Shown: in pieces, positions 3,881 through 41,516 of the stretch
Layout: every line of letters begins with the position of its first letter
Position numbering within the stretch: the stretch's first letter is position 1
Source of the DNA: Spirochaetota bacterium
Lineage (GTDB): Bacteria > Spirochaetota > Spirochaetia > Treponematales > UBA12059
DNA: 55,109 nt
Direction: 5' to 3'
NCBI GenBank assembly: GCA_018816345.1
Contig: JAHIWG010000006.1
Span: forward strand, 1 to 55,109
The notes under the pieces: model-generated
What the model saw: the letters and a program-made list of their open reading frames with translations, nothing else
What the model was told of the DNA's origin: nothing
Databases searched by the model: none
Translations under genes and position numbers: made by a program

Positions 3881-4294
3881 CTAATAGTAGATTTTGATCG
3901 ATGATGTCTCGATGGTATACTCGTACGACGGATGCGACTCGTACAGCCTCGCGACGAGCTCGTACGGATAGGACATATAGCTCGACGCCGCGAAGGTGAA
4001 GGACAGGTCGACCTCCCCTTCCATCTCGGTTAGCGTCACGTTAGCGCCACCCACCATCGCTCCGTCGTCGGTGTTGAAGCCGACGGCGACCTTGTAGCCT
4101 ACCCCTGGCTCCCTCATAGACAGCATATAGGCTACGGTTACGTTAAAAGGCATGCCCGTGGAGATATCCGCCCCGTTGGCTGGTACGACATGGCTTATCT
4201 CGACGGGGATGAACGGGACCTCGGCGGGCCGGCACCCGGTCAGTAGGCCGAGGTTCGCTATCGCGAAACCGAGAACGAGTAGAGCCTTCGACAT
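3881..4294 (-). CDS. predicted lipoprotein with Ig/sandwich-like mature part
   Basis: This 137-residue protein has a signal sequence ending in the lipobox LLTGC (Cys at about 21) and a mature domain with alternating hydrophobic residues (VEISHVVPANGADI, GYKVAVGFNTDDG), suggesting a bacterial Ig-like fold. Function unknown. The ATG at 4294 is preceded by GAGG; a longer frame upstream has no ribosome site. A promoter with TTGACA lies at 4425-4453, and the second small lipoprotein follows after 9 bp, so this is a two-gene envelope operon. Confidence 0.7.
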   Translation of the reverse strand: MSKALLVLGFAIANLGLLTGCRPAEVPFIPVEISHVVPANGADISTGMPFNVTVAYMLSMREPGVGYKVAVGFNTDDGAMVGGANVTLTEMEGEVDLSFTFAASSYMSYPYELVARLYESHPSYEYTIETSSIKIYY

Positions 4295-4424
4295 ATCATC
4301 CTCGCTTTGGCGAGTCGATGATCGGAAGCGGCTTCCCGCCGTCAGTGGCCGTCGTACTCCGTTCGAGCGCATCAGCAGTGGGAATCCATCCCGCTCCGCT
4401 TCAGTCGACCCGTTTCAAGAGCTA

Positions 4425-4453
4425 AGTATTGATTCGCCCTATTCCGCTGTCAA
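4425..4453 (-). promoter_or_regulatory. sigma70-type promoter of the lipoprotein pair
   Basis: On the minus strand TTGACA (4448-4453), a 17-bp spacer and AATACT (4425-4430) precede the lipoprotein gene by about 130 bp. The rest of the 4295-4521 gap shows nothing else. Confidence 0.5.
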
Positions 4454-4521
4454 TACTCATCGCGTTCGGCGACGCCCCGGGAGATCCTGGCCAGGCGGAT
4501 CCTCTGGACCGGGGTACAGGA

Positions 4522-5259
4522 TTAGCCCGGCGCGACCCGCGATCGCCGCGCCCCCGCGCGCCGGTACCGCGACGGCGGCACGCCCTCCAGCCGCCTGAAG
4601 ACTCGGGCGAAGTAATCGGGGTCGTCGAAGCCGACCGCTACCGCGACGTCGGTGACGTTAACGGATCCCTCGTCGAGAAGGCGCTTGGCCTCCTCGACGC
4701 GATGCCGGTTTAGGTACTTGATGACGGTGGAACCGGTCTCGCGACGGAATAGCCGGCAGAGGTGGGCCTTGCTGGTTCCCGCGACCATGGCCAAGCTGTC
4801 CAGGGACACCTTGGCAGTGAACTGTAGCGTGATGAACTCCACCGCGCGGCCCACGGCGCGGCTGTAGCCCCGGCCGGCGCGGAGGCGCGAGAAGGCGCAA
4901 TACTCGACGAGCATGGAACGTTGAAGCGCCGCGAGGGCTTCGAGCCTCGCGGTCCGTTCTATGGCGATCGCGAAACGCTCCGAGAGGGCATGGATATGGA
5001 GGGGATGGACGCCCCCCTGCTCGACCGCCTTGCGCAGGATAGTGTTGAGGACGATAGTCAGGTTCTTCGCCGAGCGGAGCTCGTCACGGTGGCGCGGCGG
5101 GAAGCGGAAAGCGGACGCGATCTCCGGCAGGGCGCGCTCGAGGGCCACGGAATCGCCCGCCGCGACCAGCCGCATCAGTAAGTTCTCGAAGCGGTACCGG
5201 CGCTCGACTTCTTCGATGGAATCCCGCCCCGCCTCGTCTTCGTCAAGGGTCATCGACAT
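4522..5259 (-). CDS. AraC-family transcriptional regulator
   Basis: A 245-residue DNA-binding protein. The C-terminal 100 residues are a clear AraC/XylS double helix-turn-helix (SLDSLAMVAGTSKAHLCRLF, then VTDVAVAVGFDDPDYFARVF, ending with the usual P-S-R-Y-R). The first ~140 residues are a helical domain that I cannot assign; no cupin motif is obvious. The ATG at 5259 has GAGAGG six bases upstream. It is divergent from the GPH sugar transporter and the glycosidase, so it most likely controls them. The palindrome at 5287-5298 in the shared intergenic region is the obvious candidate site. Confidence 0.9.
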   Translation of the reverse strand: MSMTLDEDEAGRDSIEEVERRYRFENLLMRLVAAGDSVALERALPEIASAFRFPPRHRDELRSAKNLTIVLNTILRKAVEQGGVHPLHIHALSERFAIAIERTARLEALAALQRSMLVEYCAFSRLRAGRGYSRAVGRAVEFITLQFTAKVSLDSLAMVAGTSKAHLCRLFRRETGSTVIKYLNRHRVEEAKRLLDEGSVNVTDVAVAVGFDDPDYFARVFRRLEGVPPSRYRRAGARRSRVAPG

Positions 5260-5286
5260 TCATCGCCTCTCCGAACCGTAGTCTAC

Positions 5287-5298
5287 CCTGAATTCAGG
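5287..5298. promoter_or_regulatory. perfect 12-bp palindrome, possible operator
   Basis: CCTGAATTCAGG is an exact palindrome 28 bp upstream of the AraC-type gene and within the divergent promoter region of the sugar locus. Operator function is inferred from position only. Confidence 0.35.
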
Positions 5299-5392
5299 CG
5301 AGTTGGTGTTTTTTTATTACGGTTCCGATCAAATCCGTCCGTGCGGGCTCTAGTAAACGCCATGACAATTCCCCTGCTGGAGGAGACAAGGC

Positions 5393-31858: not shown

Positions 31859-31983
31859 AGTATATCTCCTCGGGACGTAGATGTTGTCCTATCCTAGCAT
31901 ACGGGGCGGATAGGGCGCAAGATCGGCCGATGACGCACTTGCCCGCTGGGGCCGGCATCGTCCATACTGGCTACGGAGGGACC

Positions 31984-33732
31984 ATGAAGGAACAGCTGAT
32001 AGTCAAGAACCTTCCGTTCATCAAGATTCTCCCGTCCTGGGCCCAGGAACTGTCCTATAAGTACTGCTCCAAGACGGCCAATCTCTATATAGTCCACGGC
32101 AACATACGCGACTTCCTGCCCCACAAGATGAACGAGGGCGAGTTCAACTTCGTCAAGATACAGGACTACGTCTCGGAGGTGCTCTTCGGCAACAGGGACA
32201 TCATAGTGTTCTGGGACCGCTCGAGCGGGGTAAGCTTCTGCTCGCCGGAGATGCAGCGCGACTACCTGCGGACGATGCGGGAACGCTTCCCGGATACCAG
32301 CGACGACGAGCTATTGTCCGCGGATCCGATGGCGGCCTTCAAGACGCTCGAGCGGTACTTCCTCATCAACATCCCGCAGAAGAAGCGCATTGTCATGATC
32401 ATCGACTACGCGGAGACTATCCTGCCGGCGTCCGACGTCGCGAAGCTCGACGAGTCGGACCGGTATTGCTTCGTCACGCTCAACAGGTGGTCCCACGACC
32501 CGGTCTTCACGCGGGGCGACGTATCGGTACTGCTCCTGTCCGAGAACCTGGCGGACCTGAACCCGAGGATAGTCTCGAGCCCCTCGACGATCAAGGTGGA
32601 GATCCCCATTCCCGACGGTACGGTGCGCTCCTCGTTCCTCGAATTCCTCGAGGGCAAGGGCACCGTCCTCCTCGACAAGGGCCTGTCGGCCGCGTCGGTC
32701 GGGGCCATCACCTCGGGGCTCAACCTGGTCAACCTGAACCGCCTCGTGGCGGAGAGCTGGCAGGAGGACAAGCCCATTTCGATGGACTACCTCCAGTCGA
32801 AGAAGCGCGAGATAATAGAGAACGAGGCCGGCGGACTCCTCGAATTCCTCGATACGGAGCACGACCTGTCGTTCGTATCGGGCCACGAATTCGTCAAGAA
32901 GCGCTTCAAGCACGCGGCGCGCGCGCTCAAGCAGGGCCGCCTCGACGTGCTCCCCATGGGCTACCTGATAGCGGGCCCGGTAGGCACCGGCAAGAGCTTC
33001 ATGGTATCGGCCTTCGCGGGCGAGATAGGCGTGCCCATGGTCAAGTTCAAGAACTTCCGCTCTAAGTGGCAGGGCGTCACCGAGTCGAACCTGGAGAAGG
33101 TCCTGACGATACTCAAGGCCATGTCGCCAGTAGCCGTGATGATAGACGAGGCGGACGCCTTCCTCGGCGACCGCGACCAGGACGGCGACTCGGGCACGTC
33201 CAACCGCATTTTCGCCCAGCTAGCGAGCTTCATGGGCAATACCGAATTCCGCGGCAAGATTATATGGTTCCTCATCACCTGCCGCCCCGACCTCCTGCCT
33301 ATAGACCTGAAGCGCCAGGGCCGCGCCGAGGAGCACCTCGCCCTCTTCTACCCGGATAACGACAAGGACAAGGAAGCCCTCTACGAGGTCCTGGTCAAGA
33401 AGCTGGACCTCTCGATACGCAGGTTTCCCGTCTCCGACCTGTTCAAGCGCTTCAAGCACGAGTTCTCCGGCGCCGACCTCGAGGCGGTGCTCATACGCGC
33501 GAAGCTCAAGGCGACGATGGACGGGCGATCCTTCGTCACCAAGGAGGACCTCGAGGAGACGATGGCAGACTTCGTGCCTCCCGCGTACCCTCACGAGATA
33601 GAGCTCCAGAACCTCGTCGCCGTCATCGAGTGCACGAGCAAGGAGATGGTCCCGAAGAGATTCCAGAACCTCGACCGATCGCGCCTCGTCAAGGACATCC
33701 AGGAGCTTAAGAGCCTGCTCGGGGAGCGCTAG
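31984..33732 (+). CDS. AAA+ ATPase (Cdc48/Ycf46-like)
   Basis: A 582-residue soluble ATPase. The C-terminal half is a classical AAA module with Walker A GPVGTGKS (331-338), a pore-loop-like stretch (FRSKWQGVTESN), Walker B VAVMIDEAD (383-391), and a sensor region ending in arginines (TCRPDLLPIDLKRQGR). The N-terminal ~290 residues look like a degenerate AAA-type or sensor domain without a Walker A (YIVHGNIRDFLPH, RIVMIIDYAETIL), as in Ycf46-type proteins. The substrate is unknown. GGAGGG precedes the ATG at 31984. The histidine kinase gene starts 4 bp after the stop, so the ATPase is probably made with the two-component system. Confidence 0.82.
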   Translation: MKEQLIVKNLPFIKILPSWAQELSYKYCSKTANLYIVHGNIRDFLPHKMNEGEFNFVKIQDYVSEVLFGNRDIIVFWDRSSGVSFCSPEMQRDYLRTMRERFPDTSDDELLSADPMAAFKTLERYFLINIPQKKRIVMIIDYAETILPASDVAKLDESDRYCFVTLNRWSHDPVFTRGDVSVLLLSENLADLNPRIVSSPSTIKVEIPIPDGTVRSSFLEFLEGKGTVLLDKGLSAASVGAITSGLNLVNLNRLVAESWQEDKPISMDYLQSKKREIIENEAGGLLEFLDTEHDLSFVSGHEFVKKRFKHAARALKQGRLDVLPMGYLIAGPVGTGKSFMVSAFAGEIGVPMVKFKNFRSKWQGVTESNLEKVLTILKAMSPVAVMIDEADAFLGDRDQDGDSGTSNRIFAQLASFMGNTEFRGKIIWFLITCRPDLLPIDLKRQGRAEEHLALFYPDNDKDKEALYEVLVKKLDLSIRRFPVSDLFKRFKHEFSGADLEAVLIRAKLKATMDGRSFVTKEDLEETMADFVPPAYPHEIELQNLVAVIECTSKEMVPKRFQNLDRSRLVKDIQELKSLLGER

Positions 33733-33736
33733 GCCC

Positions 33737-35500
33737 ATGCGGAGACCGCGCTACTTCAGGAGAGTCTTCGCGCTGTTCCTCGCGGCGGCCATCGCCCCCG
33801 CCGCGGCCATCTCCGTCGTATATACCTCGCTCGCCGGCGCCGCCCTTCGCCGGGAGGCGGAAGGGCGGCTTGACTCGCAGGCCGCGGCGTTCGCGCGCGC
33901 GGTCGCCTCGATAGCCGACTCCTGCGCCAGGGGCCTCGAGGCGGTAGCCTCGGACCAGGCGGTACTGGCGGCGCTCGCCCCCGGCAACCGAGGCGACCCG
34001 GCCGTTTCCGCGAAGGCCTATAGGCGCATCTCGGCGAGCTTCCCTCGTGACTCCGGCCCCGCGGAGGCGAGCGTCATCTCGGTCGACGGATCGGTCTTCC
34101 TCCCTCTCGGGGCCGTCCCCCCCGACCGCGACCTCTCGGTCTACGGCTCCTGGGGGATATTCCGCTCGCTGGCGGCCGCGCCCATCGCCGTCGAGCCCCG
34201 AGTCGCCCCGCTCTCGGACGGCTCTCCCGGCTCGTTCTGCGTCGGCATCCCCATCGAGGGCGATGACGGCGTACGGCTCGGCTACGCCATCGCCGACGTA
34301 CGGCGCTCGGCTATAGCCGCCGCGGCCTCCTCGAGCGGGCTGTCGTCGGGAGCCTCGCTCGCCTTCCCCTCGGGGAAGATAGTCTTCGACCGCTCCGAGC
34401 CGGAACGGGAGGACGGCTTCGTCTACGAGGCGGGCCTCGGCTCGGACTCGGGGCGGCTCTCCGAGGCGTCCGCCTCCGGCGCGGGAACGGGGTTCACCGT
34501 CTTCGCGTCGTCGCCGAGCGGCCTCTACGACGGTTTCGGGAGGTCCGCCAGGAACGTCGCGCTGGCCGGGCTCGCGGGCGCGGCGGTACTCGCCTCGGTC
34601 CTGGCCCTGCGCGTCTCCTCCTCGGTTACCGAGCCGGTCCTGCAGATGGCGCGATCGATGAGCCGGGTCGAGGCCGGGGACCTAACGATACGGATAGAGC
34701 CGTCCGGCGACGACGAGCTGGGCGACCTCGCCCGCTCCTTCAACGCGATGACCGCCGAGATAGACGCGTTGCTCAAGCGGGAGGTAGAGCGGCAGGAGCT
34801 GCTGAGGGAGGCGGAGCTCGGGGCGCTGGCCGCTCAGATGAACCCGCACTTCCTGCATAATACCCTCGCGTCCATAAAGTCCCTGGCGAAGCTCGGGAGG
34901 CAGGCGGAGATAGCGGAGGTCGTATCCAGGCTCGGCAAGATCCTGCGCGCCGGCATGGGGACCCGCGCGGGATTCTCGACGATAGGCGAGAGCCTCTCCT
35001 ACGTCAGCGACTACCTGAGCATCGAGAAAGTGCGCTTCGGGGACCGATTCGCGTTCCGGCTCGACGTCGATCCTTCCGTGCAGGCGGCGGCCATCCCTCC
35101 GCTGACCCTCGAGCCGCTCGCCGAGAACGCGCTGACCCACGGCCTCGAGCGCAAGCGGGGCCACGGGACCTTGCGTATAACGGGAAGGCTCGAAGGCTCC
35201 GACGTCGTCGTCTCCTTCGTCGACGACGGTCCGGGCATGGAACCGGACGCGATGGAGGCGCTTTCCGCGTCGCTACTCGCGGCTGAACCGCCTAAGGGGG
35301 GGCGCGGCATGGGGCTCCTCGGCACTAACCGGCGGATCGCGCTGGAGTACGGCGACGGCTACGGCATCGGCGTGCGCCCGGCCGACGCGGCGACGGGGCG
35401 CGGCTTCGAGGCGATCCTCCGCGTCCCGGCGAGGCTCGGCGACCAGGCGAGGCCCGGCGACCCGGCGAGGCTCGGCGCTATCGCGGGAGGCCCGGCTTGA
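33737..35500 (+). CDS. YesM/LytS-type sensor histidine kinase
   Basis: A 587-residue membrane kinase. Transmembrane helices near residues 9-31 and 273-293 enclose an extracytoplasmic sensor domain of about 240 residues. A HAMP linker (SSSVTEPVLQMARSMSRVEAG) follows, then the His_kinase domain with phospho-accepting H371 in QMNPHFLHNT, and an ATPase domain with PLAENALTHGL (N box), VDDGPGM (G1) and GRGMGLLGTNRRI (G2). The C-terminal tail consists of 18-bp DNA repeats encoding ARLGDQ-like units. It should phosphorylate the response regulator encoded next, whose TTG start overlaps its stop. The convergent sugar ABC importer is the likely target system. Confidence 0.92.
   Translation: MRRPRYFRRVFALFLAAAIAPAAAISVVYTSLAGAALRREAEGRLDSQAAAFARAVASIADSCARGLEAVASDQAVLAALAPGNRGDPAVSAKAYRRISASFPRDSGPAEASVISVDGSVFLPLGAVPPDRDLSVYGSWGIFRSLAAAPIAVEPRVAPLSDGSPGSFCVGIPIEGDDGVRLGYAIADVRRSAIAAAASSSGLSSGASLAFPSGKIVFDRSEPEREDGFVYEAGLGSDSGRLSEASASGAGTGFTVFASSPSGLYDGFGRSARNVALAGLAGAAVLASVLALRVSSSVTEPVLQMARSMSRVEAGDLTIRIEPSGDDELGDLARSFNAMTAEIDALLKREVERQELLREAELGALAAQMNPHFLHNTLASIKSLAKLGRQAEIAEVVSRLGKILRAGMGTRAGFSTIGESLSYVSDYLSIEKVRFGDRFAFRLDVDPSVQAAAIPPLTLEPLAENALTHGLERKRGHGTLRITGRLEGSDVVVSFVDDGPGMEPDAMEALSASLLAAEPPKGGRGMGLLGTNRRIALEYGDGYGIGVRPADAATGRGFEAILRVPARLGDQARPGDPARLGAIAGGPA
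35428..35480 (+). repeat. 18-bp imperfect tandem repeat at the kinase C-terminus
   Basis: Three units beginning GGCGAGGCTCGGCGACCA, GGCGAGGCCCGGCGACCC and GGCGAGGCTCGGCG (last one partial) sit just before the stop and the start of the regulator gene. Copy change would stay in frame. Confidence 0.75.
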
Positions 35501-36324
35501 GGCGCCTCCTCGTGGCCGAGGACGAGGAGCTGGCCAGGCGGGAGCTCGAGACGACGGTACCCTGGGAGCGATGGGGATACATGCTCGTCGGAGCGGCGGA
35601 GGACGGCGCCCACGCGTGGGACCTGATAGTCGAGCGCCGCGCGGAGGTCGTCGTCACCGACATACGCATGCCCGGCATGGACGGCATGGACCTGATGCGC
35701 AAGGCCCTCGCGGAGCTCGAGCCGGCCTCGAGGCCGCTCTTCGTCATCCTGTCGGGGCACGCCGACTTCGAGTACGCCCGCGAGGCGGTACGGCTCGGGG
35801 CGTTCGACTTCCTCATCAAGCCCGTCGACGACGGCGACCTGGAGGACACCATGCTGCGCGCGTCCAGGCGGGCTGACGAGCTGGAGAGGATAGCCGGCCT
35901 CGAGAAGGCCGCGGCCACCGACCTGGCCTACGGCCTCCTCCGGGACCTTACCAAGGAGCGGGTCGCGGACTCCGGCGACGCCTACGTGGAGGCGGCCATC
36001 GCCGACCTCCGCGATCGCTTCGTCGTCGACCTGTCGGCGGATTCGGTCGCGGAGCGCCTCGGCATCTCGGGGGACCACCTCTCGCGGCTGCTTAAGAAGG
36101 CGACGGGCATGACGTTCAACGAGTACCTGACCCGGCTCAGGATGAAGCGGGCCATGGAACTGCTCCGCGACCCCGCCGTCCGCATCGGCGAGGTCGCGGA
36201 CCTGTCCGGCTACAAGGACGCGCGCTATTTCAGCACGCTATTCCACCGCGTCGTAGGCTCTACGCCCAGCGAATTCAGGCACGGCCGCAAGCCGTCGCCT
36301 AGCGAGGGGAACGAGGGTCAATAG
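35497..36324 (+). CDS. YesN-type response regulator (REC + AraC HTH)
   Basis: A 275-residue cytoplasmic regulator. The receiver domain has the acidic pocket (E8, D9), phospho-acceptor D55 in VVVTDIRMPGMDG, a Ser in the ILSGH switch position and K in FLIKPVDD. The C-terminal 100 residues are an AraC double helix-turn-helix (LSADSVAERLGISGDHLSRL, then IGEVADLSGYKDARYFSTLF). The start is TTG at 35497, overlapping the kinase stop (TTGA), with GGGAGG seven bases upstream. Together with the kinase it likely controls the neighbouring sugar ABC operon; the stop codons of this gene and the lipoprotein gene overlap by 7 bp tail to tail. Confidence 0.93.
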   Translation: MRRLLVAEDEELARRELETTVPWERWGYMLVGAAEDGAHAWDLIVERRAEVVVTDIRMPGMDGMDLMRKALAELEPASRPLFVILSGHADFEYAREAVRLGAFDFLIKPVDDGDLEDTMLRASRRADELERIAGLEKAAATDLAYGLLRDLTKERVADSGDAYVEAAIADLRDRFVVDLSADSVAERLGISGDHLSRLLKKATGMTFNEYLTRLRMKRAMELLRDPAVRIGEVADLSGYKDARYFSTLFHRVVGSTPSEFRHGRKPSPSEGNEGQ

Positions 36325-37364
36325 CCCGACAGCAAGGCCTTGAAGCGCCCGAGCGTGGCCTCGCGGCGAGTGACGGCGGCGTCGAAGTCGTAGTCGACGA
36401 GCCGTATGGAATCCAGGGGCGGGAGGCCGTCGGGCACGGGCGCGTCGGACCTGGCCGAGCGCCGCTTGAATCGGGCCGTGACGACCCGGGCCACGTCGCC
36501 GCCGAGCGCGAAATCGACGAATCGCCTCGCCGCCTCGGGATGCGGGGCGCCCCGGATTATGGCTACGCCGTCCGGAACCGCCGAGGTGCCCTCGAGCGGA
36601 TAGACGACGCTGACGTCCGAGCCCAGCCGCCTCGCGTCCGCGCCGGCGTTCTCGTAGGTAGCGCCGGCGAGGTACTCCCCGGCCGCGACGCCCTTGTATA
36701 CCATCGCCGACTCGGCGAGCGGCTCGCCGCCTATCGCCCCGATGAAGCCTTCCACCAGCCGCCACCCGCTCTCCGTACCGTCGGGATCGGCGGCGCTACT
36801 TGCGACGGCGGCGCTGCTTGCGACGATCATCGTGCGCAGTATCGTATACGAGCTGCCCGAGGCGGAAGGATCGGCGTACGCGACGCTTCCCTGGAGCGCC
36901 GGCGACAGGAGGTCGGCCCAGCTCCTGGGCGCCGCGGCCTCGGGGACGAGCCTGGCGTTATAGATGATCACCATGGGAAGCACGGTGAAGCCCGTCCAGT
37001 ACCCGTCCTCGTCGCGCAGGCTCCTCGGTATGGCCTCCCGCTCCGGGGACGCATAGGCCTCGAACAGCCCGATATTCGCGACGAGGCTCTCGGCGCCGCC
37101 GCCCCACAGCACGTCGGCGTCCGGGCCCTCCCCCCGGCCCAGCCTGGCCAGCAGGGCTCCCGTGCCGTCCGAGACGACGCGGACACGGAGGCCGGTGCGC
37201 TCGCGGAACTCGTCGACTATCGCCTTGGCCAGGTCCTCGGGGTGCGAGGAGTAGACGACGAGGTCGGCCGCCCGATCTTCCGGCGGCCTCGGCGAGCATG
37301 CGAGAATCGTCGCGGATACGAGGGCGGCCGCCAGCCCGGCCGCCGCGAGGCGGGCGATCGTCAT
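36318..37364 (-). CDS. FbpA/AfuA-like substrate-binding lipoprotein
   Basis: A 348-residue extracytoplasmic binding protein with a lipobox (ILAC, lipidated C23). The mature part shows the type II periplasmic-binding pattern of the iron/phospho-sugar family: LVVYSSHPEDLAKAIVDEF, GPDADVLWGGG, YWTGFTVLPMVIIYN, SWADLLSPALQGSVAYADP. It is the second binding protein of this ABC locus, coupled by ATGA overlap to the permease upstream, and unlike the first one in family (the first is a CUT1 sugar binder). Such orphan lipoproteins can act as ligand sensors for LytS/YesM-type kinases (HptA with HptSR in Staphylococcus). That role is inferred; simple transport is the alternative. Confidence 0.87.
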   Translation of the reverse strand: MTIARLAAAGLAAALVSATILACSPRPPEDRAADLVVYSSHPEDLAKAIVDEFRERTGLRVRVVSDGTGALLARLGRGEGPDADVLWGGGAESLVANIGLFEAYASPEREAIPRSLRDEDGYWTGFTVLPMVIIYNARLVPEAAAPRSWADLLSPALQGSVAYADPSASGSSYTILRTMIVASSAAVASSAADPDGTESGWRLVEGFIGAIGGEPLAESAMVYKGVAAGEYLAGATYENAGADARRLGSDVSVVYPLEGTSAVPDGVAIIRGAPHPEAARRFVDFALGGDVARVVTARFKRRSARSDAPVPDGLPPLDSIRLVDYDFDAAVTRREATLGRFKALLSGY

Positions 37365-38215
37365 TCCTTACCGGCCTGGTACACGGCCGAGCCTCCTAGG
37401 AAGTATTTGGACAGGGTGAAGAATAGCACGAAAACGGGCAGGGAGGCGATGACGGCCACGGCCATCATGGCGCCCTCGTCGGCGTGCTTCTCCGCGGCGA
37501 ATTTGACTATGTACGCGGGGATCGTCTTCATCTTCTCCTCCTGCGCGACGAGGAGCGGCCATAGCAGGTTGTCCCACTGCTGCCTGAACGAGAGGACGGC
37601 CAGGGTCGCCGCGGCGGGGCCGGAGTTCCTGAACACTATCTCGCGGAAGATCCTCGGTTCCGAGCAGCCGTCTATACGGGCCGCGTCGAGCATCTCCTCG
37701 GGGAAGGTGATGAGGTACTGCCTCATGATGAACACGCCGAACGCGTTCATCAGGAAGGGCACGATGAGGCCGGCGTACGAATTCTGCATGCCCGCCTTGA
37801 CGATGATCAGGTACAGGGGGATCATCACCGTCTCGAACGGTATCATCATGGTTCCCATGATAGCCATGAATACGGCGTCGCGGCCCCGGAACCGGAACTT
37901 CGCCAGGCCGTAGCCCACGATCGACGAGAGGACGACCGTCGAGACCGCTATGGAGGAAGAGACTATGACCGAGTTGAGGATGTTCCGTAGGAACATCCAC
38001 GTGCCGTCGTTGCCCGCGAGCGCGCGTAGGTAGTTCGCGGGCATCCAGGTCTCCGGGATCCAGCGGTACGGCATCCTCATTATGTCGATGGCCGGCATGA
38101 ACGAGGAGCCGAGCATGAACGCGAGGGGCACGAGCACGACGGCGCAGGAGGCGGCGACGAAGACCGTCCTCAGCGCCGGGGCCGCGGCCTCGCGTAGCGG
38201 GACGAGGCGCGTCAT
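37361..38215 (-). CDS. sugar ABC transporter permease, MalG-like (CUT1)
   Basis: A 284-residue inner-membrane permease with six predicted helices. The EAA loop that contacts the ATPase is visible as EEMLDAARIDGCSEPRIFREIV (a long form of EAAxxDGA-x8-I-x-LP), after the typical SFMPAIDIMRMPYRWIPETW start. The ATG at 38215 overlaps the stop of the first permease gene (ATGA); the longer reading frame upstream is not real. It forms the channel with the MalF-like permease. No ATP-binding subunit gene is present, so a shared MsmX/UgpC-type ATPase encoded elsewhere must serve it. Confidence 0.93.
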   Translation of the reverse strand: MTRLVPLREAAAPALRTVFVAASCAVVLVPLAFMLGSSFMPAIDIMRMPYRWIPETWMPANYLRALAGNDGTWMFLRNILNSVIVSSSIAVSTVVLSSIVGYGLAKFRFRGRDAVFMAIMGTMMIPFETVMIPLYLIIVKAGMQNSYAGLIVPFLMNAFGVFIMRQYLITFPEEMLDAARIDGCSEPRIFREIVFRNSGPAAATLAVLSFRQQWDNLLWPLLVAQEEKMKTIPAYIVKFAAEKHADEGAMMAVAVIASLPVFVLFFTLSKYFLGGSAVYQAGKE

Positions 38216-39123
38216 AGCCCGGCCTCGTCTTTCTTCGAGACCTTGAGCTGGACCCAGGTCAGGCCTAGCATGAACAGGAACAGTACGGTGCTCATAACGC
38301 TGGCCCTGCCGATATTGAGGTCGCGCATGGCGGTGTTGTAGATATTGAGCGTTATGACGTTGACGGGAGCGAGGGGGGCGCCGCTCTGCGTGAACAGGTA
38401 CTGCGTGCTGAACGTCTTCATGCACTGTATGAGTATCATGACCGACACCAGCACGGTGGTCGGCCTGAGGAGCGGCAGGGTTATGGAGAAGAAGCGCCTT
38501 ACGGGGCCGGCGCCGTCCATGGTCGCGGCCTCGTTGACCGAGTCGGGGATCTTCCCTATCCCGGTTACGAATAGGATGGTGAAGTACCCGAGGTACTTCC
38601 AGACGTAGACTATCATCGTGGAGACCTGCACCATCCTCCCATCGGAGAGCCACCGGTGGTCTATGCCCGGCGTCATGGAGACCCAATTGACGAACTGGTT
38701 GGCCAGCCCCCTGGGATCCAGCATGAGGAGCCAGATAAGGGCCGCCACGACGGAGGAAAGCACCGCCGGCGAATAGAGGGCCGCCTGCACGAGACGCCGG
38801 CCGCGCCTCATCGTCGTCACGAGGACCGCGAACAGGAGGCTCAATATGAAGAGCGGGACGAATACGCCTACGGTGAAGGTCGCGGTCGCCCTCGCCGAGT
38901 TCCAGAATTCCTCGGAGCCGAGGACCCGCTGGTAATTCTGGAGCCCTATGAACTTAGGCGCCTTGAGGGACAGGAGCCTCTTATTGAAGAAGCTCGTCCA
39001 TATCGCGTTGAGCATAGGATAGAAAGAGAATATCGAGAAGAACGCGAGGCCGGGAGCGACGAAGATCCAGCCCCATTTAGCCCGGTTCCACTCGAGCCCG
39101 CTAGCGGTCGATCGCCCAATCAT
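38212..39123 (-). CDS. sugar ABC transporter permease, MalF-like (CUT1)
   Basis: A 303-residue inner-membrane permease. It opens with the CUT1 pattern WIFVAPGLAFFSIFSFYPML and FIGLQNYQRVL, and the EAA loop reads VNEAATMDGAGPVRRFFSITLPLL. GGAGG precedes the ATG at 39123. The binding-protein gene lies upstream, separated by a strong hairpin (39180-39218) that probably lowers permease expression relative to the binding protein; the MalG-like gene is coupled downstream. Confidence 0.94.
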   Translation of the reverse strand: MIGRSTASGLEWNRAKWGWIFVAPGLAFFSIFSFYPMLNAIWTSFFNKRLLSLKAPKFIGLQNYQRVLGSEEFWNSARATATFTVGVFVPLFILSLLFAVLVTTMRRGRRLVQAALYSPAVLSSVVAALIWLLMLDPRGLANQFVNWVSMTPGIDHRWLSDGRMVQVSTMIVYVWKYLGYFTILFVTGIGKIPDSVNEAATMDGAGPVRRFFSITLPLLRPTTVLVSVMILIQCMKTFSTQYLFTQSGAPLAPVNVITLNIYNTAMRDLNIGRASVMSTVLFLFMLGLTWVQLKVSKKDEAGL

Positions 39124-39179
39124 CTAGACCTCCAAAAAACGCGAGACGCGAGACTATGCATGCACGTACTAACGATAAC

Positions 39180-39218
39180 GCCGCCGGGGGCGCGGAGAAG
39201 GCCCGCGCCCCCGGCGGC
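39180..39218 (-). other. intercistronic stem-loop after the binding-protein gene
   Basis: A perfect 16-bp GC stem (39180-39195 with 39203-39218) and a seven-base loop follow the binding-protein stop by 16 bp. No U tract follows, so it looks like an mRNA-stabilising or partial terminating element setting the ratio of binding protein to permeases, as in the maltose operon. Confidence 0.7.
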
Positions 39219-39233
39219 AACGCACCCATCCTC

Positions 39234-40532
39234 TTAGATGTCTGCCAGCGCGGCGGCGACGTCGCGGCGCAGCTTCTCGAGGGCCTTGGCGGGCTCTACG
39301 CCGGAGAGCATCACCGACTCGAAGGCCTCCTTGAGCAGGGACTCGATCTTGGAGCTCGCGGGTCCGTAGTAGACGATGTGCCCCGCGGCCATGTCCTTCG
39401 CGAAGACGTCGGAGTACGGAGTGGCCTTGAAGGTCTTGGAGTCGAACAGCGCCTTGGTCGGCTGGACTATGGCCACCTTCTCGAGGTATTCCTCCCCGTG
39501 CGACAGCATATACCCAATGAGCGCCCACGCCGCCTGCTGGCTCAGCTTGGGCTTCTGAGCGTTGACCATGTAGTAGTGGCCGTAGTAGTTATTCGGCACC
39601 TTCTTCACGGCGTCCTTCCACTGGGGGAAGGGCACGACCATCCACTCGCCGGAATCGTAGAAGGCCCTGTTGGCGTCGCGCATGCGCGCTTCTTGGTAGA
39701 GCCCCGACAGGGACATCGCTATCTCGTTCTTGTCGTTGTCGAAGACCTTGCGGGCTGCGGTATACGTGGGAGAGCCGAGGTTCTTGCCGTTGGGGCCGAA
39801 TTCCCTGAAGTACTCGAGCACCTTGAGCCAGGCGGCGTCGCCGGTGACGGAGCTCTTACCGTCCTTGGACACGAGGACGCCGCCGAGCTGCTCGACCATC
39901 GGCACGACAGAGGTCAGGTAGTACGGATAGCGGAAGTCGAAGCCGCGGCGCTTGATGATCTGGCCGTCGCGCGTGACTATCTTCTCCGAGACGGCCATCA
40001 CCTCTTCCCAGGTCTTGGGATAGTCCTTCATCGGGTCGAGGCCGGCGTCCCGGAATATCTTCTTATTGAGGTACATGGCCCAGTTGGTCAGCTCGAGGGG
40101 CATGCCGTAGATCTTGCCGCCGTCGGTCACCGGGTCGAGCATGCCGGGAAGGTACTTGCCCTGCATGTCCTTCATGCTCTTGAACCCGGCGGAGGCGTAG
40201 TCCACCGGGGCGACGCGGCCGTTCTCTATGAACTGGTACTCCTCGAATATCTCGAGGTTGAAGACGTCGGGCCCGGCGTTGGCCGCGAACCCGGCGACGA
40301 CTATATCCTTGATCTTCCCCGACGGGTACGTGACGTAGTTCACGCTCACGCTCGGGTTGGCCGCGACGAACTCGTCGATCAGGCGCTTCTCGAGGGCCGT
40401 CCTGGCCTGGTCCTCGTGGGTCCAGACGACGAGCTCGACCTTCTTGCCCTTCAGGGCCCTCACGGTCGGGGCCTGCGCGAACGCGGGCGCTACGAGCAAC
40501 GCGGCTAGCATAACCGCTACGAAACGTTTCAT
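39234..40532 (-). CDS. sugar ABC transporter substrate-binding protein (CUT1)
   Basis: A 432-residue extracytoplasmic binding protein of the MalE/UgpB type. The signal peptide is MKRFVAVMLAALLVAPAFA with cleavage at AFA-QA; no lipobox. The mature part starts VELVVWTHEDQARTALEKRL and has the hinge-region motif PDVFNLEIFEEYQF and GKIYGMPLELTNWAMYLNKK typical of the family. AGGAGG precedes the ATG at 40532. It is the first gene of the operon with the two CUT1 permeases and the extra lipoprotein. The ligand is probably an oligosaccharide or a sugar, not identifiable here. The promoter region carries a dyad and an 11-bp repeat array. Confidence 0.94.
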   Translation of the reverse strand: MKRFVAVMLAALLVAPAFAQAPTVRALKGKKVELVVWTHEDQARTALEKRLIDEFVAANPSVSVNYVTYPSGKIKDIVVAGFAANAGPDVFNLEIFEEYQFIENGRVAPVDYASAGFKSMKDMQGKYLPGMLDPVTDGGKIYGMPLELTNWAMYLNKKIFRDAGLDPMKDYPKTWEEVMAVSEKIVTRDGQIIKRRGFDFRYPYYLTSVVPMVEQLGGVLVSKDGKSSVTGDAAWLKVLEYFREFGPNGKNLGSPTYTAARKVFDNDKNEIAMSLSGLYQEARMRDANRAFYDSGEWMVVPFPQWKDAVKKVPNNYYGHYYMVNAQKPKLSQQAAWALIGYMLSHGEEYLEKVAIVQPTKALFDSKTFKATPYSDVFAKDMAAGHIVYYGPASSKIESLLKEAFESVMLSGVEPAKALEKLRRDVAAALADI

Positions 40533-40588
40533 GGCATCCTCCTAGTAAAGCGACTACGATGATGATCATGGCGTTAGCCCGGGCCCGC

Positions 40589-40615
40589 AATGCCGCTAAT
40601 CCGGCATTTTGTTAA
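40589..40615 (-). promoter_or_regulatory. candidate promoter/operator of the sugar ABC operon
   Basis: On the minus strand a weak -35 (TTAACA, 40610-40615) is followed by a perfect dyad with 7-bp arms, AATGCCG (40602-40608 complement) and CGGCATT, around six bases; the dyad would lie between -35 and a poor -10. Function is inferred. Confidence 0.35.
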
Positions 40616-40630
40616 GAAAGGCGGCATCGC

Positions 40631-40685
40631 GGCGACCTCGCGGCGATCTGGCGGCGATCTGGCGGCGATCTGGCGGCGACCTGGC
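40631..40685. repeat. 11-bp tandem repeat array (five units)
   Basis: Five head-to-tail 11-bp units: GGCGACCTCGC, GGCGATCTGGC three times exactly, and GGCGACCTGGC. The array lies between the sugar ABC promoter and the membrane protein gene at 40749. The period is about one DNA turn. It may be a row of regulator half-sites or a slippage-prone element. Confidence 0.9.
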
Positions 40686-40748
40686 GGCGGCGTACCGTCG
40701 GCGAGCGATCCGCTTGCCAATCGGGCCGCCCCCTGCTACGCTGTACGG

Positions 40749-41516
40749 ATGCTTAAGTTCTTCCTCAAGAAAAGCTTCTACGACGGATGGGATAATATGC
40801 TCGCGCTGGCCTGCTTCAACGCCGCCGCGCTCGCGCTCGTCGGCCTCGGTATATGGCTGCCCTCGCTCGTCGACTCCGCGGCCGCGAGGCTCGCGGGACT
40901 GGCCTTCACGGTGGCGGCGGTATCGGTCTGGTGGTCTATAACGGCCCACGCGTTCTGGAAGGCCGCCGATGGAAAAACGGTCCGCCTGGGGGACGTCCGC
41001 CCGGCAATCGCCGCGGGCGTCGTCCCGGGGCTGCAGTTCGGGGCCATGGCCGCCGCGTCTATCGTCGCCGCGTCCATAGCCTTCCCGTTCTACGCCTCCA
41101 TCGGCGGGTTCGTCGGCCTATTCGCCACGAGCGTCGCGTTCTGGCTATTCCTGGCGCTCTGGCTTACCCTGCAGTACTTCCTGCCGGTCAGCGCCGCCGA
41201 CGGCAAGGGGTTCAGGTCCGCCCTCAAGTCGTCGCTTATCCTCTTCATCGACGCGCCGCTCTTCTCGCTGGCGCTCGCCCTCGACTGCGCCGTATGCGTG
41301 GCGGTATCGCCGCTCGTGGCCTTCCTCCTGCCAGGCCCCGCCGCGGCCGCCCTAGCCTCCTGCGAGGCGGTCAGGCTCAGGCGCTATAGGCTCTCCTGGC
41401 TCGCCGGGAGCGACGGGAAGCCCGGCCCTACTCCGTGGGCCGGGCTCCTGGCCGACGACGTCGAGGCCCTCGGCTCGAGGGGCCTCAAGGACCTGTTCTT
41501 CCCCTGGAAGCACTAG
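40749..41516 (+). CDS. multi-spanning membrane protein, possibly YesL/DUF624-like
   Basis: A 255-residue inner-membrane protein with five or six hydrophobic segments (about 17-40, 46-67, 92-145 as two, and 170-205) and a cytoplasmic-looking tail. It begins MLKFFLKKSFYDGWDNMLAL. The layout resembles YesL (DUF624) proteins found beside YesMN systems and sugar ABC importers, but I see no decisive motif. I start at the ATG 40749; the frame is open to 40590 but that part reads through the 11-bp repeats. No clear ribosome site is visible. It is divergent from the sugar ABC operon. Confidence 0.68.
   Translation: MLKFFLKKSFYDGWDNMLALACFNAAALALVGLGIWLPSLVDSAAARLAGLAFTVAAVSVWWSITAHAFWKAADGKTVRLGDVRPAIAAGVVPGLQFGAMAAASIVAASIAFPFYASIGGFVGLFATSVAFWLFLALWLTLQYFLPVSAADGKGFRSALKSSLILFIDAPLFSLALALDCAVCVAVSPLVAFLLPGPAAAALASCEAVRLRRYRLSWLAGSDGKPGPTPWAGLLADDVEALGSRGLKDLFFPWKH

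Follow-up and report, generated by a model that had tools for sequence, protein, structure and literature searches.

Gene content and layout of the locus

The window, meaning the whole stretch of 55,109 nucleotides that was analysed, is contig JAHIWG010000006.1 of the Spirochaetota assembly GCA_018816345.1, and the features considered here are listed in Table 1. By Pfam membership, one SBP_bac_1 binding protein (SBP1) and two BPD_transp_1 permeases make up a CUT1 transporter operon, and ORFs and Pfam together confirm the first-pass annotation in that this operon ends in a second binding protein of a different family, the lipoprotein LIPO. Against the NCBIfam models, permease 2 scored 134 bits (UgpE, cut-off 297) and permease 1 scored 126 bits (UgpA, cut-off 335), both below the cut-offs, and the solved structures matched by SBP1 are mostly maltose/oligosaccharide-type binders. 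The CUT1 operon in the window has no ATPase gene; two OB_MalK candidates for a MalK-type ATPase are present in the same genome, both away from the operon.

Table 1. Features of the LIPO locus, with positions in the window
Feature	Position	Strand	Basis or remark
AAA ATPase, genus-specific neighbour	31930..33732	+	ends 4 bp before HK
HK, YesM-type sensor histidine kinase	33737..35500	+	Pfam HAMP + His_kinase + HATPase_c
RR, YesN-type response regulator	35497..36324	+	Pfam Response_reg + HTH_18/AraC; TTG start
LIPO, HptA/AfuA-family lipoprotein	36318..37364	-	Pfam SBP_bac_6 best
CUT1 permease 2, UgpE-like	about 37361..38212	-	Pfam BPD_transp_1
CUT1 permease 1, UgpA-like	38212..39123	-	Pfam BPD_transp_1
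SBP1, the CUT1 transporter's own binding protein, MalE-like	39234..40532	-	Pfam SBP_bac_1
Candidate operator AATGCCG-N6-CGGCATTGCGGG	40584..40608	-	~52-76 bp upstream of SBP1 start codon

The start of LIPO overlaps the stop codon of permease 2, and the HK and RR genes overlap by 4 bp in the ORF calls. As the RR stop codon (TAG) occupies 36322-36324 and the LIPO stop codon (TGA) 36320-36318, the 7-bp convergent overlap with the kinase-regulator pair that had been noted from the sequence is real. The gene order and the convergence of LIPO with RR were repeated in 10/10 other family loci whose contigs reach RR and HK (an eleventh ends at a contig edge), and the arrangement is therefore more than a chance juxtaposition. 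The exact overlap is not conserved; at these other loci spacing varies from a slight overlap to roughly 100 bp apart, and convergence alone is retained. In most relatives, a HAD phosphatase gene that is absent from the window lies between permease 2 and LIPO. The AAA ATPase gene adjoins HK in those loci of the genus whose contigs reach that far, and none was found at the g2, g4 and g7 loci. In one genome (G018), it still adjoins the CUT1 operon though HK, RR and LIPO are gone, and the AAA ATPase is probably outside the LIPO-HK-RR module.

The perfect palindrome core of the candidate operator occurs once in the whole 3.8-Mb genome, upstream of SBP1, and of 10 upstream regions from the family, 8 carry the palindrome in the equivalent position with 0-2 mismatches. 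It is absent from the corresponding region of G018, which is without RR and HK. Genus g4 and the more distant loci of class A (see below) likewise have no such palindrome ahead of SBP1, though RR is present there. When two mismatches were allowed, the palindrome was not enriched in the genome (13 sites versus 17 for the reversed control), so the perfect copy and its conservation are the only evidence that counts. A sigma-54 promoter was also weighed as the identity of this element but dropped because of the spacing, judged by eye. One further site with a single mismatch (on C40) falls within an ORF.

The lipoprotein clade and its putative ligand site

The clade that includes LIPO contained 46 rows (SH-aLRT 91) in three groups, A (20), B (17) and D (9), and the same groups were recovered in the HK trees. 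The trees were quick and unrooted, with SH-aLRT support only; 12 loci duplicating others were removed beforehand, and LIPO matches of <60 bits or <200 residues and kinase matches of <150 bits were left out. Class A consists of spirochaetal loci with the CUT1 transporter setting, class B of LIPO-HK-RR gene sets with no CUT1 operon, and class D of LIPO-ATPase-permease (FbpB-type) operons with HK-RR nearby. Across these three settings and two phyla, all 46 rows are linked to HK-RR except 3 at contig ends. Thus, an exclusive pairing of the homologues with permeases and never with kinases, which the first-pass annotation had named as the outcome against a sensing role, does not hold in this clade.

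Several loci depart from these settings. At one (L098), LIPO faces RR-HK and no CUT1 genes were found in the 21-kb locus. In Pygmaiobacter and Fournierella (L106 and L110), there are two copies of the LIPO homologue, one standing with the transporter and the other with the kinase. Class E comprises six related HK-RR pairs from another family that face a CUT1 operon without LIPO, indicating that such kinases can exist without a LIPO; at one of them (L188) a second CUT1-type binding protein occupies the LIPO slot. Beyond the clade, most LIPO homologues stand with FbpB-type permeases. In class D, and in the majority of relatives beyond the clade, the homologue seems to feed a transporter; that of the Erysipelothrix-type branch appears both to sense and to feed one.

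LIPO includes a lipobox-like sequence ending in Cys23, which is invariant in 12/12 orthologues. Its best match by sequence among solved proteins is HptA (6lkg/6lki; 26 % identity, Z 30.9), which was also the top match for the A1 profile (126 bits), and its AF2 model (mean pLDDT 94.8), a predicted structure, aligns with AfuA (Z 35.0) and P5PA (Z 33.1). The phosphate-binding residues of AfuA and P5PA are those given in PMC4546632 and PMC8427247. T68, S169, S171 and S219 of LIPO, each present in 20/20 class A rows, align with AfuA S37, S148, T150 and S184, respectively, and this putative phosphate-binding cradle supports a phosphorylated ligand. The sugar-coordinating residues of AfuA, given as H205, D206 and E229 in PMC4546632, correspond to N239, A240 and E258 of LIPO, and only the counterpart of E229 is kept. 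Apart from the window, which has none, 14 of 19 class A loci contain a HAD phosphatase gene; of 9 class D loci, 7 contain a HAD gene and 8 a phosphohexomutase gene.

Two other ligands were rejected. The best NCBIfam name is that of the 2-aminoethylphosphonate binding protein PhnS2 (TIGR03261), yet LIPO scored only 97.6 bits against a cut-off of 392.75, the score of a class D relative (L089; 187.5 bits) is also below that cut-off, and the genes adjoining the class D relatives encode phosphohexomutase and HAD proteins. Ferric-binding proteins are among the solved relatives, but the best profile and fold matches bind phosphorylated ligands. Routine annotation would label LIPO as an iron- or phosphonate-transport protein.

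Co-occurrence, divergence and the kinase sensor

LIPO orthologues were found in 12 of 23 family genomes (E <= 1.5e-79) and HK in the same 12, which bears out the co-occurrence that had been put forward as a check. SBP1 was found in 13, the thirteenth being G018, where SBP1-permease-permease directly faces the AAA gene and LIPO, RR and HK are missing. The G018 SBP1 falls within the genus in the tree, and loss of the three genes is therefore the simplest reading. As they are neighbours and could have been lost in a single deletion, G018 demonstrates persistence of the transporter in the absence of LIPO, but not an interaction between LIPO and HK. CUT1 operons without LIPO were also found in G282, in a second operon of the same genome as the window (C14) and in class E, and the persistence of the transporter in these cases supports the earlier claim that the lipoprotein does not feed it.

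These operons bear on the reading of LIPO as a second delivery protein that widens the substrate range of the CUT1 permeases, with HK-RR adjacent only because RR lies opposite the operon under its control. Binding-protein genes often occur in tandem, LIPO starts on the permease 2 stop codon, and homologues in class D and most of those outside the clade stand with FbpB-type permeases. However, SBP1 is of the MalE type, whereas the family of LIPO is the one that pairs with FbpB-type permeases; loci without a CUT1 operon (class B and L098) still carry LIPO together with HK-RR, and LIPO diverges at the rate of the two-component system rather than that of the transporter. For class A, 66 pairs (not independent) from 12 of 16 usable loci gave mean identities of 49.8 for LIPO, 52.7 for RR and 52.7 for the HK core versus 69.3 for SBP1 and 71.8 for the permease, i.e. 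LIPO of class A diverges like HK and RR and not like the transporter. The partial correlation of LIPO with the HK sensor given the transporter was 0.76, and that of LIPO with the permease given HK and RR was 0.28 (pairs again not independent). In class D (5 loci, 10 pairs), LIPO (63.7) tracks the permease (65.1). We consider a delivery role improbable.

A dual role, in which LIPO would sense and would also serve a separate FbpB-type permease whose gene lies in another part of the genome, is less probable still and would be surprising. It is suggested by class D, where one homologue may serve both purposes, and further SBP_bac_6 loci exist in the genome, one of which includes a permease and an ATPase. 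However, a binding protein of the group with the AfuA-type H/D residues accompanies the FbpB-type permease at C49, so no orphan permease is evident among the genome permeases examined, and, measured against the transporter, LIPO evolves at another rate than the transport homologues do.

The N-terminal part of HK gave a sub-threshold match to Pfam dCache_1. The AF2 model of the extracellular sensor (approximately residues 30-272, mean pLDDT 90.9) has a dCache fold, with Z scores of 17.7 to 6d8v and 15.9 to NagS (8w7p) in VIA-align, which re-scored only Foldseek's list of matches. The HptS sensor was not among the matches listed for this model, nor was it matched by the HK sensor profile. A WG motif is present in the sensor of 53 of 60 aligned kinases; L143 and the six class E kinases all lack it. 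It was considered as a mark of LIPO-linked kinases and rejected because four control kinases that do not adjoin LIPO carry it, and it is thus not specific to them.

The strongest competing explanation, though rather unlikely in our view, is that the nutrient is detected by HK itself, either directly by the dCache domain or by way of SBP1, and that LIPO merely sharpens sensitivity or can be dispensed with, as CuaD partly can for CuaSR. The class E kinases manage without LIPO, dCache domains bind small ligands, and the closest among the matches listed for the HK model are directly binding receptors; CuaSR also answers cellobiose even without CuaD, according to PMC10384115. On the other hand, within the family LIPO and HK are either both retained or both lost, and LIPO was found without HK at no CUT1 locus examined, contig ends aside. 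The class E sensors have lost the WG motif, as if sensing had changed, although it persists in the four kinases that have no LIPO next to them.

Proposed signalling route and comparison with known systems

We conclude that LIPO, HK and RR probably form an HptASR-like three-component system wired onto the CUT1 transporter operon. The proposal that the lipoprotein senses a sugar or sugar phosphate for the kinase is likewise favoured by comparison, through the 46-row HK-linked clade and the predicted phosphate cradle. LIPO, anchored outside the inner membrane, would bind a small phosphorylated compound, with a sugar phosphate the most likely candidate, and the ligand-bound form would dock on the dCache sensor and alter HK activity. 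HK would then phosphorylate RR, which may bind the palindrome upstream of SBP1 and switch on the CUT1 operon. The permeases would be fed by SBP1 and not by LIPO, and LIPO, as the last gene of that operon, would provide feedback on the sensor.

The clade may also preserve steps from a transport binding protein to a dedicated sensor, a tentative scheme that we regard as somewhat short of probable: dual in class D, doubled in L106 and L110, kinase-only in class B, rewired to CUT1 in class A and lost in class E, where a CUT1-type protein seems in one case to have taken the place of the lipoprotein. On this view, the kinase would be a socket for different antennae and pumps, with one kind of ligand, a phosphorylated hexose. 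As the trees are unrooted, we infer the direction from D to A and B. The dual-use, duplicated, dedicated and lost versions form a natural series for a direct test of how a signalling protein arises from a transport protein. Should LIPO prove to be a sensor, the names given to many SBP_bac_6 proteins encoded next to YesM/YesN genes in spirochaetes and Clostridia would be wrong, and the ligand of each would reveal the inducer of the neighbouring transporter.

In XylFII-LytS, AraPSR and PgtC-PgtB-PgtA, a binding protein also relays a ligand signal to a sensor kinase, but the binding-protein families or the kinase/regulator types are other than those found here. A YesMN-linked or spirochaetal version was not found in titles and abstract openings, in literature that covers few subscription journals, and this is weak evidence of absence. 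The CuaD-CuaS-CuaR system of Ruminiclostridium cellulolyticum is alike in that a second binding protein, not the transporter's own, senses for a two-component system controlling the transporter (PMC10384115). However, CuaD senses cellobiose according to that paper, whereas LIPO belongs to the HptA/AfuA family and has the phosphate cradle. AfuA (of AfuABC) and P5PA share the fold and the phosphate-binding positions of LIPO, but they feed FbpB-type ABC permeases (PMC4546632, PMC8427247), and LIPO is without the sugar-specifying H205 and D206 of AfuA.

The closest likeness is to HptA-HptS-HptR of Staphylococcus aureus, which, like the system here, combines an HptA-family lipoprotein, a kinase with an extracellular sensor and an AraC-type regulator. 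HptASR responds to a phosphorylated ligand and controls uptake (PMC8774646, PMC8399564). The hptASR genes form one side-by-side set, an order shared by the class B relatives, whereas in the window LIPO belongs to the transporter operon, on the other strand, and is transcribed convergently with RR-HK. HptA binds glucose-6-phosphate and the sensor of its kinase, while for LIPO the conserved phosphate cradle points to a phosphorylated ligand. HptASR controls the UhpT hexose-phosphate antiporter, and the transporter presumed to be controlled here is a CUT1 ABC system. On the best reading, this kind of system is already known, and what is new is its wiring onto a CUT1 transporter.

Gene content and conservation in the host family

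The 3.8 Mb spirochaete assembly that includes the window is in 175 contigs. The genes described in the first-pass annotation, and the 7 bp overlap between the stops of the HptA/AfuA-family lipoprotein (LIPO) and the YesN-type regulator (RR), were found where it had placed them, and its family assignments agree with Pfam and NCBIfam. The CUT1 operon does not contain an ATPase gene, and two MalK-type candidates were found elsewhere in the genome. The AAA ATPase listed below is 92-94 % identical within the genus.

Features of the locus in the window
Feature	Position	Strand	Remarks
AAA ATPase (CDC48/FtsH-like AAA domain)	31930-33732	plus	4 bp upstream of HK
HK, YesM-type kinase	33737-35500	plus	
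RR, YesN-type regulator	35497-36324	plus	
LIPO	36318-37364	minus	Start on permease 2 stop
SBP1, CUT1 binding protein	39234-40532	minus	First of operon, then two permeases, then LIPO
Divergent intergenic region	40533-40751		Given the later ORF start
Candidate operator, AATGCCG-N6-CGGCATTGCGGG	40584-40608		Upstream of SBP1
ORF, membrane-type protein	40590-41516	plus	Likelier start near 40752
Short tandem repeats (gcgatctggcg-like)	40640-40700		Upstream of candidate operator; window only, not in relatives' upstream regions

LIPO orthologues are present in 12 of 23 genomes of the host's family. The CUT1 genes, then LIPO, face RR and HK in 10 of the 11 relatives; in the eleventh, G013, the locus stops at a contig edge and the HK orthologue is on another contig. 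The co-occurrence of lipoprotein and kinase, proposed as a check in the first-pass annotation, was seen within the family: the same 12 genomes hold LIPO and HK, and SBP1 is found in 13, though several of the 23 are incomplete (the lowest 57 % complete) and some absences may therefore be gaps. Genome G018, from the window's genus and 94 % complete, lacks LIPO, RR and HK but still has the CUT1 operon, with the AAA gene facing it directly. Because its SBP1 falls inside the genus in the tree (support 99), the three genes were probably lost. A single deletion could explain this, and G018 is thus informative on the dispensability of LIPO for the transporter, rather than on an interaction with HK. 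In its distribution across genomes, LIPO tracks HK rather than the transporter.

Permease 2 and LIPO are separated by a gene for a HAD phosphatase of ~200 residues in all eight loci read from genera g1, g2 and g7. Of 19 class A loci (defined below; window not counted), 14 have this gene (e.g. L031:7541-8143), but it is absent from the window (at 37361) and the three g4 loci. The product is glucose-1-phosphatase-like, with a score far under that family's cut-off. Contig C14 of the same genome carries a paralogous CUT1 operon with a HAD gene and without LIPO, RR and HK.

Ten upstream regions from the family were examined; eight carry the candidate operator at the equivalent position, with 0-2 mismatches, and two from genus g4 lack it. 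It is kept in G011, where SBP1 shows just 74 % identity, and is absent in G018, which lacks RR, and before the C14 paralogue. The window's genome has a single copy of the perfect core. The element is also missing from more distant class A loci, so that the site, if it is that of RR, has drifted.

The LIPO family and the delivery alternative

Neighbourhoods of 114 loci were annotated with locally built profiles. Of 125 LIPO-family proteins placed in a tree, 46 form one group (SH-aLRT 91), made up of 20 in class A (spirochaetes, CUT1 operon facing RR-HK; L098 alone is without CUT1 genes), 17 in class B (Oscillospiraceae and relatives, with LIPO-HK-RR all in one direction) and nine in class D (LIPO-ATPase-FbpB-type permease, with HK-RR nearby). 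Three class A rows are truncated at contig ends; all the others in the group are linked to HK. HK trees (54 and 60 rows) recovered these three classes. L106 and L110 have LIPO-HK-RR sets and, in agreement, their HKs fall in class B; both loci additionally hold a class D LIPO with its transporter.

Beyond the 46, the majority of LIPO homologues adjoin genes for FbpB-type permeases and ATPases. In six Treponema-like loci (L145, L147, L148, L149, L151 and L155) there is a separate, second LIPO-HK-RR set; the transporter encoded after it has a binding protein that retains the AfuA H and D residues. The link between LIPO and a kinase thus appears to have formed, or moved, on more than one occasion. 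Eight loci of genus g58, probably Brachyspira (L138, L139, L140, L144, L161, L163, L164 and L174), have 2-4 LIPO-family genes in tandem, followed by an FbpB-type permease and in some loci also an ATPase.

Class D, in which a close homologue is built into a transporter operon, is one of the two strongest points against a dedicated sensor. The other is class E, related kinases that can dispense with LIPO. SBP1 homologues (E ≤ 1e-100) were found in 22 of 296 genomes of the phylum sample, and 20 stretches were read (G018, C14 and 18 more from SBP1 matches). LIPO is absent from all 20; HK-RR lie opposite the CUT1 operon in six (class E), and an HK-type kinase was not found by profiles in the other 14. 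The LIPO slot facing RR-HK is taken in L188, a locus of a related family, by an additional CUT1-type binding protein (4097-5344), which is on a long branch and is possibly a replacement antenna.

Divergence points the other way. Mean pairwise identities in class A, from 12 of 16 loci (L122 with a partial SBP1) and with pairs that are not independent, are 49.8 % for LIPO and 52.7 % each for RR and the HK core, whereas the slower SBP1 and permease 1 share 69.3 and 71.8 %. In class D, LIPO (63.7 %) is similar to its permease (65.1 %), with the HK sensor at 27.4 %, and nine purely transport loci gave 43.8 % for LIPO and 49.9 % for the permease. We read this contrast as class A LIPO having been freed from permease contact.

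Ligand and kinase sensor

The best match of LIPO profile A1 is HptA, at 126 bits; members of the AfuA group score 123 and 121 bits, and P5PA 103. The LIPO AF2 model (mean pLDDT 94.8) resembles AfuA most closely (Z 35.0, rmsd 2.8, 303 aligned), with HptA at Z 30.9 (rmsd 3.1, 290 aligned). According to the AfuA and P5PA reports, the phosphate site comprises AfuA S37, S148, T150 and S184-G185, or the P5PA equivalents (PMC4546632, PMC8427247). LIPO T68, S169, S171 and S219, which align to the AfuA phosphate positions so described, are present in 20/20 class A rows, but H205 and D206, which in AfuA coordinate the sugar, are substituted. The class D pocket is much like that of class A, and class D loci include a phosphohexomutase (8/9) and a HAD gene (7/9). 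Given the conserved phosphate residues and these neighbours, a phosphorylated sugar appears the likeliest ligand; hexose-1-phosphate, which would suit both enzymes, is a guess. The phosphohexomutase is beside the LIPO-transporter-kinase set in L087 (13834-16275) and other class D loci, with a nucleotidyltransferase-like gene in 4/9, possibly a pathway for sugar phosphate uptake and activation.

The HK sensor model (mean pLDDT 90.9) is a dCache domain resembling, among many others, the NagS sensor 8w7p (Z 15.9); HptS was not among the structures listed.

Comparison with known systems

Despite classes D and E, the comparative evidence favours the first-pass reading, that LIPO senses and does not feed the transporter, and a dedicated sensor component appears more likely than a delivery protein. 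In the literature searched, of limited coverage, neither a CUT1 operon that has its own, different binding protein and closes with the gene for an HptA-type lipoprotein nor a series of intermediate states from transport to sensor was found. The idea of a lipoprotein sensor is itself not new in kind, with precedents in HptASR (PMC8774646, PMC8399564) and CuaDSR (PMC10384115).
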